A DNA stretch of 64,000 nucleotides from Actinomycetospora sp. NBRC 106378 (GTDB lineage Bacteria > Actinomycetota > Actinomycetes > Mycobacteriales > Pseudonocardiaceae), in contig NZ_BSTT01000015.1 in assembly GCF_030269685.1 (NCBI RefSeq), positions 1-64,000 of the forward strand, given 5' to 3'. The notes under the pieces are model-generated. The model did no database searches, was not told the DNA's origin, and saw only the letters and a program-made list of their open reading frames with translations. Each line of letters begins with the position of its first letter. Positions within the stretch are counted from its first letter, which is position 1. The translations under genes and the position numbers were made by a program. This document shows, piece after piece, positions 18,273 through 29,866 of the stretch.

Positions 18273-21200
18273 TCAGGCCGCGAGCAGCTGCGACATCGCG
18301 GCGACCAGCGCGGCCGGGGTGCGGTGCTCGATGACCGCCTCGGCCGGGAGCCGCAGCCCCGTCGCCGCGTTGAGGCGGTTGCGCAGGTCGATGCTCAGCA
18401 ACGAGTCGAACCCGAGCTCGCGGAACGAGTCGGCGGGGCCGACCGCGCCGGGCTCGTCGAACCCGAGGACCGCCCCCGCCTGGTCGCAGACCAGCGTCAG
18501 CAGGTCGTCGCCCGCCGGGGGCTGCGACACGGGCGCCTCGGGCACCCCGGTGGGCCCCGGGTCGACCGCCGGCCCCGGGTCGACGACCGGCGGCGCCGTC
18601 AGCTCCGCCAGCAGCGCGACCCGTTCGGCGGCGGTCCCCGACGTGTCCAGCGCCATCGGGACCACGTGCGCCCACGGCTGGTCGACGGCGGCGTCGAACA
18701 GCGCGAGCCCGTCCGCGGTCGCGAGCGGCGCCACCCCCGTCCGGCGCATCCGGGCGACCTCGCGGGCCCCCAGGTGTCCGGTCATCCCGCTCGCCGTCGC
18801 CCACAGCCCCCAGGACAGGGAGACCGCGGGCAGACCGAGGGCACGCCGGTGGGCGGCGAGGGCGTCGAGCCCGGTGTTCGCCGCGGCGTAGTTCGCCTGC
18901 CCGGCCTCGCCGAGGACCCCCACCACGGACGAGAACATCACGAAGCCCCGCAGGTCCAGGTCCAGGGTGGCCTCGTGCAGGTGCCACGCCGCGTCGAGCT
19001 TCGGGCCCGACACCCCCGCCAGCCGCGTGGCGTCGAGTCCGGCGAGCAGGGCGTCGTCGAGCACGCCCGCCGCGTGGACCACGCAGGTCGGCGGATGGGC
19101 GGCGACGAGGGCCTCGACGGCGGCGCGGTCCGCGAGGTCACAGGCCACGACGACCGCCTCGGCTCCCGCCGCGGCGAGCTCGTCCATCAGGGCCGCGGCG
19201 CCGTCCGCCTCCGGACCGCGCCGGGACACCAGCACCAGGTGCCGCGCCCCGTGGGCCGCGACGAGGTGCCGGGCCAGGACCCCGCCGAGGCCCCCGGTCC
19301 CCCCGGTGACGAGCACGGAGCCGGTCGCGTCGAACGGCACCGGGAGCGTCGCCACGAGCTTGCCGCGGTGGCGGGCGCGGCTCAGGTCCGCCAGCGCGAC
19401 GGCGGCGCGCCGCACGTCGTGGGCGGTCGTCGGCAGCGGGCTCAGGACGCCGCGGTCGAACAGGTCGAGCACGGTGGCCAGACCGGCCCCGACGTGGTCC
19501 GGGTCGGTCGTGATGATGTCGTAGGCCGTGTACCCGACGCCGGGGTGCTCCGCCGCGACGACCGCCGGATCCCGCAGGTCGGTCTTGCCCATCTCGACGA
19601 ACCGCCCGCCGGGGGCGAGGAGGGCCAGCGAGGTGTCGAGGGCGGGGCCGGTGAGGGAGTTGAGCACGACGTCCACGCCGCGCCCGCCGGTCGCCGCACG
19701 GAACGCAGCGCCGAACGCCACGTCCCGCGACGACGCGATGTGGGCATCGTCGAGCCCCATCGCCCGCACCGTGTCGTGCTTGGCGGGGCTCGCCGTCGCG
19801 AACACCTCGGCACCCAGGTACCGGGCGAGCTGGACCGCCGCCATCCCGACCCCGCCGGTGGCGGTGTGGACCAGGACCCGGTCACCGGGGGCCACCCGGC
19901 CCTGGTCGACGAGGCAGTGCAGGGCCGTGACGAAGACGATCGGGACCGCGGCAGCCGCGGTGAACGACCAGCCGGCGGGCAGGCGCGCGAGGCGGCGGCG
20001 GTCGGCCACCGCGAGCGGCCCGAGGGACCGGGCGACCATCCCGAGGACCCGGTCGCCGGGGACGAGGTCGGTGACGTCGGGGGCCACCTCGACCACCACG
20101 CCGGCGCACTCCGCGCCCATCGTCGTCTCGCTCGCCAGCAGGTCGAGCGCGACGGTCACGTCCCGGAAGTTCAGGCCGGCGGCGCGGACCGCGATCCGGA
20201 CCTCGCGCGGCCCGAGGGGAGCCGCCGCGTCCGGGTGCGGGACGAGGGCGAGGTCGCCGAGCGAGCCGCGGGTGGTGACGTCGAGCCGCCAGGGACCGGC
20301 GGCCGGGGTGGCGAGCCCGTCGTCGGCCCCGACCTCGACGAGCCGCGGGCGCAGCACCCGGCCCCGCCGCAGCGCCAGCTGCGGTTCCCCGGTGGCGAGC
20401 GCGGCCGGGAGGACCGTGGCCGACTCGGGGCTGTCGTCGCCGTCGAGCAGGACGATCCGGCCGGGGTGCTCGGACTGGGCGGAACGCACGAGCCCCACCA
20501 CCGGGGTGAGCGCGCGCCCGCCGTCGCCGACCGCGTCGCCCTCGCAGGCCACCCCGCCGTGGATCTGCACGACCAGCGTCGAGGTGTCCGTCGCGGGGTC
20601 GGCGGTCCAGCGCTGCAGCAGCCCGAGGACGTCGGAGAGCGCGGTCGCCGAGGGCGGCACGGTGACGACGACCACCGGGGGGAGCGGCCCGGCGGCGCGC
20701 GGGTCACCGTCGACCGGCATCGCGCCGACCTCCACCGTGGCGTCCGGATCGAGGTCGACCGGGGTCCACTCGGTGCGGAGCACGACGGCGCGGTCGGCGG
20801 GCACCTCGGCCGCCGCCCCGTGCAGGGACCGCAGGCGCAGGTCGGCCGCGAGCACGGCACCGGCGTCGTCGAGGATCTCCAGGGTGACGTCGTCGGGCGC
20901 CGTGCTGCGCAGCCGGGCCCGTGCCGCGGCGCCGAGGGGCCCGGTGGCGCGGACCCGGGAGAAGGCGAAGGGCACCATGCCGCGGCCGTCGAGCAGGTGG
21001 GGCAGGGCGTGGAGCACCGCGTCGAGCAGGGCGGGGTGGACGACGTGGCCGGCGCCGGTGCGGGCGGCCGGGGGCAGCGCCACCTCGACCGTGCCGCCGT
21101 GCTCGTCGCACCACAGGCGTCGCAGGCCCCGGAAGGCCGGCCCGTAGTGGTATCCGGCCGCGGTCAGCGCCGCGTAGCGCTCGGCCGGGTCGGCGGTGGT

Positions 21201-28601: not shown

Positions 28602-29866
28602 CGTGCGTCTCCCTCGACGTTGCGGAGGACCATCGCGCTCTGGAAGCCGCCGAAGCCGCTGCCCACGGTCAGGACGGTGTCGACCTGCTTCTCGCGGGCC
28701 ACCAGCGGGACGTAGTCCAGGTCGCACTGCGGGTCCGGCTCGTGCAGGTTCGCCGTCGGGGCGATGACCCCCTCCCGCATCGCCATGAGGCAGCCCGCGA
28801 TCTCGAGCGAACCGATCGCCCCGAGCGAGTGCCCGATCATGGACTTGAAGCCGCTGACCGGGATGTCGTAGGCGGCCGCGCCGAGGCTGCGCTTGAACGC
28901 GCCCGTCTCGTGCAGGTCGTTCTGCTTGGTCCCCGAGCCGTGCGCGTTGATGTAGTCCACGTCGCGGGCCGAGACCCGGGCCCCGGCCATCGCGACGTCG
29001 ATGGCGTCGGACATCTCGCGGCCCTCCGGGTGCAGCCCCGTCATGTGGTACGCGTTGCACCGGGACGCGAAGCCCGCGACCTCGCCGTAGATCCGCGCGC
29101 CGCGCCGGCGGGCGTGCTCGAGCTCCTCGAGGACGAGGATCGCCGCGCCCTCGCCCAGCACCAGCCCGTCCCGCGTCCGGTCGAACGGACGGCAGGCCGA
29201 CGCCGGCTCGTCGTTGCGCGTGCTGCTGGCGCGGATGACGTCGAAGCACACCGTGGTGATCGGGGACAGCGGCGCCTCGGTCCCGCCGGTGATGGCGACG
29301 TCCACGCCCCCCTCCGCGATGAGCTCGGCGGCGTAGCCCACCGAGTCCAGGCCCGAGGTGCAGCCGGTCGAGACGACCGACACCGGCCCCTCGGCGCCCG
29401 CGAGCCAGGCCAGCTCGGCCGCCATCGAGCTCGGCGTGAAGTAGTCGTAGAGCCACGGCACGGTGTAGGCCTGGTCGACCTCCCAGTTCCGCCCGCGGTC
29501 GCTGCCGATGACGAACTCCTCCTCCAGCGAGGTGGTGCAGCCGACCGCCGTCCCGAGCGCGACCCCGGTCCGGGTCGGGTCGATCTGGTCGAGTTCCAGG
29601 CCCGCGTCCGCGACCGCCTCCCGGGCGGAGACGACGGCGAACTGCGCGGCCCGGTCGAGGCGGCGGATCTCCTGCGGGGACAGGCCCTCGCGCCGGGGGT
29701 CGAAGTCGACCTCCCCGGCGATCCGCGAGCGGTAGGGGCTCGCGTCGAAGTTGGTGATGACCCGGGTCGCGGACCGGCCCTCGGACAGCAGCTTCCAGTA
29801 GCTCTTGAGCCCGATGGCCCCGGGGGCCACGACGCCCACCCCGGTGATCACCGCCCGCCGGCTCAT
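28598..29866 (-). CDS. Type II PKS ketosynthase alpha (KS-alpha)
   Basis: A 422-residue condensing enzyme of the ActI-ORF1 family. Cys169 lies in VSTGCTSGLDSVG, the same position as in actinorhodin KS. INAHGSGTKQND and GFKSMIGHSLGAIGSLE provide the catalytic His residues. With CLF (28601) and the ACP at 56007 it forms the minimal PKS that elongates with malonyl units. Unlike classical sets, the ACP gene is about 26 kb away, and the operon continues into a type I PKS. The start at 29866 is MSRRAVITGVGVVAPG with GGAG upstream. Confidence 0.95.
   Translation of the reverse strand: MSRRAVITGVGVVAPGAIGLKSYWKLLSEGRSATRVITNFDASPYRSRIAGEVDFDPRREGLSPQEIRRLDRAAQFAVVSAREAVADAGLELDQIDPTRTGVALGTAVGCTTSLEEEFVIGSDRGRNWEVDQAYTVPWLYDYFTPSSMAAELAWLAGAEGPVSVVSTGCTSGLDSVGYAAELIAEGGVDVAITGGTEAPLSPITTVCFDVIRASSTRNDEPASACRPFDRTRDGLVLGEGAAILVLEELEHARRRGARIYGEVAGFASRCNAYHMTGLHPEGREMSDAIDVAMAGARVSARDVDYINAHGSGTKQNDLHETGAFKRSLGAAAYDIPVSGFKSMIGHSLGAIGSLEIAGCLMAMREGVIAPTANLHEPDPQCDLDYVPLVAREKQVDTVLTVGSGFGGFQSAMVLRNVEGDAR

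Follow-up and report, generated by a model that had tools for sequence, protein, structure and literature searches.

Why does a modular type I polyketide synthase (PKS) gene sit beside a minimal type II PKS, and what would its product contribute to an aromatic polyketide? The locus that raises this question lies in the window, our term for the whole stretch of DNA analysed here: bases 1-64,000 of a 137,014-base contig (NZ_BSTT01000015.1) from the 6.3 Mb genome of Actinomycetospora sp. NBRC 106378. An earlier note on this DNA had proposed that the type I protein builds a branched acyl starter and hands it to the ketosynthase alpha (KS-alpha) and chain length factor (CLF) of the type II system. 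Our analysis makes it quite probable that the type I protein does make the starter for KS-alpha/CLF, and that the cluster encodes a hybrid of type I and type II PKS like those of hedamycin and kidamycin. This role is supported because the type I bimodule recurs with a related KS-alpha/CLF, a priming ketosynthase III (KSIII) of the DpsC type and an enzyme resembling TxnO9.

A type I bimodule encoded with KS-alpha and CLF

On the minus strand, genes for a cytochrome P450, a ferredoxin, a SnoaL_4 protein, KS-alpha, CLF and the type I PKS follow one another at spacings of 34, 15, 97, -4 and 39 bp (Table 1). The coordinates confirm the earlier statement that KS-alpha, CLF (overlapping by 4 bp) and the type I gene share a strand. 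Between CLF and the type I gene there are 39 bp. The same note had assigned them to one transcription unit. Strand and spacing suggest that the operon genes are transcribed together; a scan of positions 17000-33000 found no promoter- or terminator-like sites, a result of low informativeness at 76% GC.

The type I protein is 3008 residues long, and Pfam places in it, in order, a ketosynthase (KS), an acyltransferase (AT), a PP-binding acyl carrier protein (ACP), a second KS and AT, a dehydratase (DH), an ADH-family enoylreductase (ER), a ketoreductase (KR) and a second PP-binding ACP. In the first KS, glutamine replaces the active cysteine (GQSSSL) and both histidines are kept, which makes it a KSQ; consistent with this, a GfsA KSQ chimera ranks second among its PDB matches. 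The second KS has the active site ACSSS, the extension AT carries GHSQG and YASH, and the DH, ER and KR motifs are kept, with the KR tyrosine within GQANYAAAN. The domain order given before, KSQ-AT-ACP followed by KS-AT-DH-ER-KR-ACP, is borne out by these families and motifs. Neither a thioesterase (TE) nor a terminal reductase domain was found among 19 Pfam families, Pfam being also the sole search for docking domains, and the protein ends 42 residues past the last ACP serine, in agreement with its earlier description. A hybrid of the hedamycin/kidamycin kind is marked by KSQ loading and extension type I modules in a minimal type II PKS cluster, and this combination is present here.

Could the type I gene be an unrelated neighbour that serves another pathway? 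The genome does hold another large modular type I PKS locus, with ~19 KS domains at ~34-132 kb of contig C5. However, the gene shares the strand of KS-alpha/CLF across a 39-bp gap, and in other genera, as described below, it again adjoins KSIII with KS-alpha/CLF not far away. We regard this explanation as very improbable.

A DpsC-type priming ketosynthase beside the type I gene

The type I protein had been described as having no docking partner. The cluster holds three candidate partners that this overlooked: a type II ACP, a discrete AT and a KSIII, whose gene and the type I gene converge tail to tail. Clusters of the hedamycin/kidamycin kind are expected to have a DpsC-like KSIII and a discrete HedF-like AT, and the window has both. 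The PDB structure closest to the KSIII is DpsC (E=7e-80); CerJ (E=9.5e-51) and ChlB3 (E=7.4e-48) match less well. The KSIII motifs RQMSNGG and GHLGAGD align to RQVSNGG and GHLGGGD of DpsC, with serine, histidine and aspartate all kept. The triad of DpsC is reported as S118-H297-D302, and HedS of hedamycin is described as DpsC-like (PMC12664062). A minus-strand frame antisense to KSIII (16802-18064) gave spurious tblastn matches and was discarded.

The same ranking bears on a different role for KSIII, in which it would act as an acyltransferase that attaches the type I acyl group to a hydroxyl once the aromatic compound is complete, with acetate or an acyl-CoA priming the type II PKS. Acyl transfer to a hydroxyl of a finished compound is carried out by CerJ- and ChlB3-type enzymes and in LovF/LovD; the KSIII does match CerJ and ChlB3, and alpha/beta hydrolases and a metallo-beta-lactamase (MBL)-fold protein are encoded close by. 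DpsC is, however, far closer, and the KSIII has a serine like DpsC. Nor was a glycosyltransferase found among the cluster open reading frames (ORFs) that were scanned with Pfam, which were not every ORF; outside the cluster there are a PMT-type mannosyltransferase upstream, at 12417-14081, and a family 2 glycosyltransferase ~13 kb beyond the discrete AT gene. Recurrence of the bimodule with KS-alpha/CLF and a TxnO9-like gene likewise fits a starter, and we judge acylation of the finished aromatic to be unlikely.

The bimodule recurs in several genera

A CLF scan of named genomes gave 468 confirmed places. Among the best 80 of these, which were examined, three carry the bimodule in their flanks: Actinocorallia populi, a Glaciihabitans metagenome-assembled genome (MAG) and Prauserella shujinwangii. 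A KSIII search of 295 genomes of the Streptomyces genus group gave a match at E<=1e-75 in 38, and a second search, of 297 genomes of the window's family, gave a match in 45, the window's genome included; none of the 17 other genomes listed for the window's genus had one. Neighbourhoods were read in 73 short loci, in longer stretches of 29 genomes and then at five remaining places, where no bimodule lay within 20 kb of KSIII. Eight further clusters with bimodule and KSIII were found, in genomes labelled G084, G240, G124, G027, G382, G416, G394 and G433. At least 12 clusters thus have the bimodule beside KSIII, the count being a lower bound since most short loci show 1.5 kb per side. Because eight of the 12 were found via KSIII, its presence there is not independent evidence; in the four found independently of it (the window and the three CLF matches), KSIII adjoins the bimodule every time.

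In all 12 clusters the loading KS is a KSQ, the extension AT carries YASH (with GASQG for GHSQG in A. populi), the extension KS has its cysteine and a discrete AT is present. The bimodule is a single protein in six (the window, Prauserella, G382, G416, G394 and G433) and is split in two proteins in A. populi, the MAG, G084, G240, G124 and G027. In nine clusters 42-56 residues follow the serine of the last ACP; in G416, G394 and G433, whose type I proteins have a short tail, the figure is 87-89.

Throughout the 12 bimodule genomes, KS-alpha is 64-77% identical to the window's, and in 11 it lies within the same stretch or contig as the bimodule. G416, G394 and G433 were considered as candidates for a bimodule with KSIII but lacking a type II PKS. 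A whole-genome search ruled this out: G394 and G433 have KS-alpha on the contig of KSIII, ~19 kb from it, and G416 has KS-alpha on a separate contig. A TxnO9-like gene is present in 10 of the 12 clusters (not seen in G027 and G382 within 55-80 kb), and an AlkZ-like gene in eight within the same distance (not seen in G382, G416, G394 and G433). Outside the window the AlkZ-like genes show 34-38% identity, the A. populi copy being partial. For comparison, Streptomyces ficellus (41 kb) has an AlkZ-like and no TxnO9-like gene, and Lentzea nigeriaca (61 kb) has neither.

We also considered whether relatives with no bimodule beside CLF or KSIII carry one elsewhere. With the A. populi KSQ as query, seven of 12 such genomes gave KSQ-like matches (E<=1e-100) at 20 places, each off the cluster contig or, in G506, more than 2 Mb away; 17 of these lie within open frames of >1,000 aa. 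We took the matches as other PKSs and set the candidate aside, a judgement that is unproven in draft genomes.

Other arrangements were seen in these searches. In G108 (loci L220, L222) a different KSQ-type PKS lies near KS-alpha/CLF, with KS-AT-ACP followed by two YASH-AT modules that have DH and KR and no ER. G569 (L199, L210) is like it, with KSQ-like loading and two YASH-AT modules, and would be another kind of type I/type II hybrid; the KS-alpha/CLF of the two pair together (support 100), apart from the window's. G569 also has two KS domains of identical sequence, through recent duplication or an assembly effect. In G294, G137 and G229 (L168-L171) a DpsC-type KSIII lies beside another modular type I PKS, and in G294 KS-alpha is ~53 kb away on the same contig. 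Several Lentzea genomes seemed to carry an in-frame TGA within KSIII; in the one frame examined (L156) this is the normal stop codon, past which the match continues.

Inheritance with KS-alpha/CLF

We built an unrooted KS-alpha/CLF tree of 51 rows by a quick method, with SH-aLRT support only. The bimodule clusters fall in two sets, eight of them within a set of 15 (support 100) and four within a set of four (support 100). The bimodule label needs four changes on this tree, against a mean of 10.9 for shuffled labels, and none of 500 shuffles was as low; the figures are the same on 46 rows. A single set holding all 12 clusters (20 rows, weak support of 87, on the 46-row tree) was dropped after the 51-row tree. 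Nested in the set of 15 are Lentzea (five rows) and Rhizocola/Allorhizocola (two rows), where the bimodule was not seen, the Lentzea flanks covering 12-21 kb round CLF and 61 kb only for L. nigeriaca. A simple reading would be that the bimodule was lost in these two lines, on an unrooted tree that cannot separate gain from loss.

The loading module and the choice of first unit

Which unit would the loading module take? The earlier note had spoken of YASH/GHSQG ATs, and this holds for the extension AT only; the loading AT instead has PGYGGQ (against PGQGxQ), GHSRG and CPTH, with the AT serine and histidine kept. The hand-over of a branched starter to KS-alpha/CLF, as the earlier note had it, gains from the recurrence with KS-alpha/CLF, KSIII and a TxnO9-like gene; the YASH/GHSQG signature does not extend to the loading AT.

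As this motif is aberrant, the first unit is unreadable from the window, and it is the relatives that suggest acetyl. The loading AT carries HAFH, which is malonyl by the usual rule (PMC10646177), in Prauserella, G382, G416, G394 and G433, the last three of one genus. It has VAGH in G084, the same as Kid13 AT1-2, and IAAH in A. populi, and in the MAG it is without the stretch expected to carry the catalytic histidine. G240, G124 and G027 (L175, L177, L184) have no AT domain in the loading module, which consists of KSQ-ACP and adjoins a discrete AT gene. Given five relatives with a malonyl-type loading AT, 2-methylbutyryl is our best guess for the product, and we lean slightly towards it.

The discrete AT has QAFH in nine of the 12 bimodule clusters and a PFH-type motif in three (Prauserella, G382 and the window). 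QAFH is reported for Kid13 AT1-1 and HedF (PMC10646177), and the window has TPFH, not the QAFH of HedF. Among 17 discrete ATs read from clusters without the bimodule, QAFH occurs in two, G523 and G569, the latter with its other KSQ type I PKS. The type I loading AT is missing from three near-identical Streptomyces clusters, incomplete in one MAG and aberrant in the window, so it might be subject to loss across the branch; the discrete AT of the priming set might then act for the type I loading ACP as well as for type II priming, and a single-chain bimodule might make a trioxacarcin-like branched starter de novo. We offer this tentatively and consider it rather doubtful. The discrete AT of the window is itself the most divergent of nine (9 of 88 columns versus 1-5 of 80-84), which weakens any claim of a simple takeover of loading there.

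Several observations weigh against the type I protein as the source of the starter. For the loading AT, divergence was counted as departures at columns that do not vary among six comparison sequences (five from the twelve clusters, and G569). By this count the window loading AT departs at 12 of 52 columns, and the others at 1-9 of 41-49, with G569 next (9/49); the window KSQ also has the longest terminal branch among the KSQs of the twelve clusters. This aberrant AT and long branch may mean that the window's loading module has weakened or altered. The label's clustering on the tree is due in part to near copies (G240/G124/G027 and G416/G394/G433). Lentzea, with 81-82% identity in KS-alpha, keeps KSIII and AT with no bimodule in the stretches examined, so KSIII could take an acyl-CoA in the window too. 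Finally, HedF, which carries QAFH, is stated to have no part in side-chain synthesis (PMC10646177).

A loading module that is failing would let these points be read differently: KSIII and the discrete AT would load an acyl-CoA, for example isoleucine-derived 2-methylbutyryl as in trioxacarcin, and the type I protein would add little or a different group. The aberrant cis-AT and the long KSQ branch speak for this, as do close kin that retain KSIII and AT without the bimodule. On the other hand, the 3008-codon frame is intact, the KSQ glutamine and histidines and the AT serine and histidine are kept, and every domain counted in module 2 falls inside the range of the relatives, the extension AT (9/82) being below that of G382 (13/86). 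We think a failing loading module improbable, and keep the type I protein as the likely maker of the starter.

A proposed route to the starter and the product

From the gene content, motifs and recurrence described above, we infer every chemical step of the following route. On the first ACP the KSQ would decarboxylate an extender, most likely malonyl, and so leave a short acyl group, most likely acetyl. One methylmalonyl unit would then be added and fully reduced by the extension module, so that the last ACP would carry 2-methylbutyryl; with methylmalonyl as the loading unit the product would be 2-methylpentanoyl. Since the protein has no thioesterase, the acyl group would be handed from the last ACP to KS-alpha/CLF, directly or via the DpsC-type KSIII. 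The primed chain would then be folded by the C9 reductase, the aromatase/cyclase and the TxnO9-like enzyme into an anthraquinone-gamma-pyrone that carries the starter as its side chain. The P450s, the epoxide hydrolases and the AlkZ-like glycosylase suggest that the product is an epoxide-bearing DNA alkylator.

Other genes of the cluster

The TxnO9 match spans 151 residues of its protein, and the AlkZ-like glycosylase matches PDB AlkZ at only E=3.4e-8. The YcaO/SagD-type gene recurs among the relatives, in Lentzea, A. populi, Allorhizocola and several of the Streptomyces. The protein with no Pfam match has counterparts of 43-47% identity in Lentzea and Allorhizocola clusters.

Table 1. Features of the window and its immediate flank (window positions unless marked as contig).
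Feature	Position	Strand	Basis
DpsC-type priming KSIII, Ser-His-Asp kept	17159..18184	+	Pfam ACP_syn_III_C; PDB DpsC 4xs7 E=7e-80; motifs
Type I PKS, KSQ-AT-ACP-KS-AT-DH-ER-KR-ACP, no TE	18273..27299	-	Pfam, motifs
Chain length factor (CLF)	27339..28601	-	Pfam; PDB 1tqy chain B (actinorhodin KS 2) E=2.5e-140
KS-alpha	28598..29866	-	Pfam
SnoaL_4 protein, operon member	29964..30401	-	Pfam
2Fe-2S ferredoxin, operon member	30417..30737	-	Pfam
Cytochrome P450, operon member	30772..32121	-	Pfam
Mycothiol-S-transferase family protein	33441..34082	+	Pfam
Epoxide hydrolase 1	44012..45394	-	Pfam
Epoxide hydrolase 2	45680..46900	-	Pfam
TxnO9-like, putative anthraquinone-gamma-pyrone ring former	48724..49263	-	PDB TxnO9 5z4f E=5.8e-48
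YcaO/SagD-type cyclodehydratase with TOMM leader-binding part	49565..51808	+	
SARP-type regulator	55113..55934	+	
Type II ACP	56007..56267	+	Pfam PP-binding
C9-type ketoreductase	56264..57037	+	PDB 3sju 355 bits vs ActKR 305 bits
Aromatase/cyclase	57062..58051	+	PDB BexL E=2.4e-76
Protein without Pfam match	58344..59243	-	
Discrete acyltransferase, GHSAGE/TPFHS	62809..64000, gene continues to contig position 64278	-	
AlkZ-like DNA glycosylase, outside the window beside the discrete AT	contig 64379-65929		Pfam AlkZ-like E=1.5e-61

Significance and comparison with known systems

The principle of a type I-primed type II PKS is already known from Kid13/Kid14 of kidamycin, for which knock-outs have been published. 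Three features go beyond it: fusion of the bimodule within a trioxacarcin-like (TxnO9/AlkZ) gene setting, its occurrence across several genera, and loading-AT loss in some relatives. In the open-licence literature we found no report of a fused bimodule with a type II PKS in this setting, of its spread or of the loading-AT loss. Hand-over from a modular type I ACP to a type II KS-alpha/CLF would be a rare junction, usable for new side chains on aromatic polyketides. The twelve clusters, fused and split, together with kin in which no type I part was seen, form a comparative set for the acceptance of type I acyl-ACP by KS-alpha, and the gene setting predicts uncharacterised DNA-alkylating compounds.

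In the kidamycin system of Streptomyces sp. W2061, Kid13 with KSQ loading and Kid14, an ER-bearing methylmalonyl-type module, feed a type II PKS (Kid15-19), as proposed for the window; the product is an anthrapyran with a short branched side chain, and with kid13 disrupted, kidamycin, photokidamycin and rubiflavinone C-1 were no longer produced (PMC10646177). The contrast that the earlier note drew between an iterative type I system in hedamycin and a bimodule here had overlooked this case (PMC10646177). Kid13 and Kid14 are separate proteins, Kid13 with an extra N-terminal AT, whereas the window has a single protein and a discrete AT far off. Kidamycin also has amino-sugar genes, whereas the ORFs of the cluster and its surroundings that were scanned with Pfam included no C-glycosyltransferase or amino-sugar genes, the pluramycin hallmark; the Kid proteins were compared by description only.

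In hedamycin biosynthesis the KS reportedly takes its primer directly from the HedU ACP, and PDB 3sju, the nearest structure to the window's C9 reductase, is presumably HedKR. Like the window, hedamycin combines a type I PKS (HedT/HedU) that makes the starter with a type II PKS (HedC/D/E), the DpsC-like HedS, a discrete AT (HedF) and the AlkZ-like HedH4 (PMC12664062, PMC9570651, PMC9040887, PMC6560455, PMC10646177). HedU is described as iterative, using malonyl units for a hexadienyl starter, whereas one methylmalonyl extension with full reduction is predicted for the window. A type I starter has been proposed for shellmycin as well (PMC7024178). Daunorubicin resembles the window in its DpsC-type KSIII with serine, histidine and aspartate and in its discrete AT (DpsD), and differs in that DpsC uses propionyl-CoA, whereas the donor proposed for the window is a type I ACP.

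The trioxacarcin and LL-D49194 clusters, likened here by description and not by sequence, share with the window a TxnO9 homologue, KSIII, an AlkZ-like glycosylase and epoxide-related genes. They are marked by two HTH_42/AlkZ-like glycosylases; one was found in the window's contig, and a second was not sought genome-wide. The S. ficellus cluster, with many shared genes, has no bimodule in 41 kb. The AlkZ-like family is reported to remove trioxacarcin and LL-D49194 adducts (PMC8934636). TxnO9 forms the pyrone ring of trioxacarcin, and the 2-methylbutyryl starter of that compound is reported to derive from isoleucine and to enter through KSIII (PMC9570651). The starter predicted for the window is the same acid; that of trioxacarcin reportedly comes from isoleucine, whereas that of the window would come from the predicted type I PKS.

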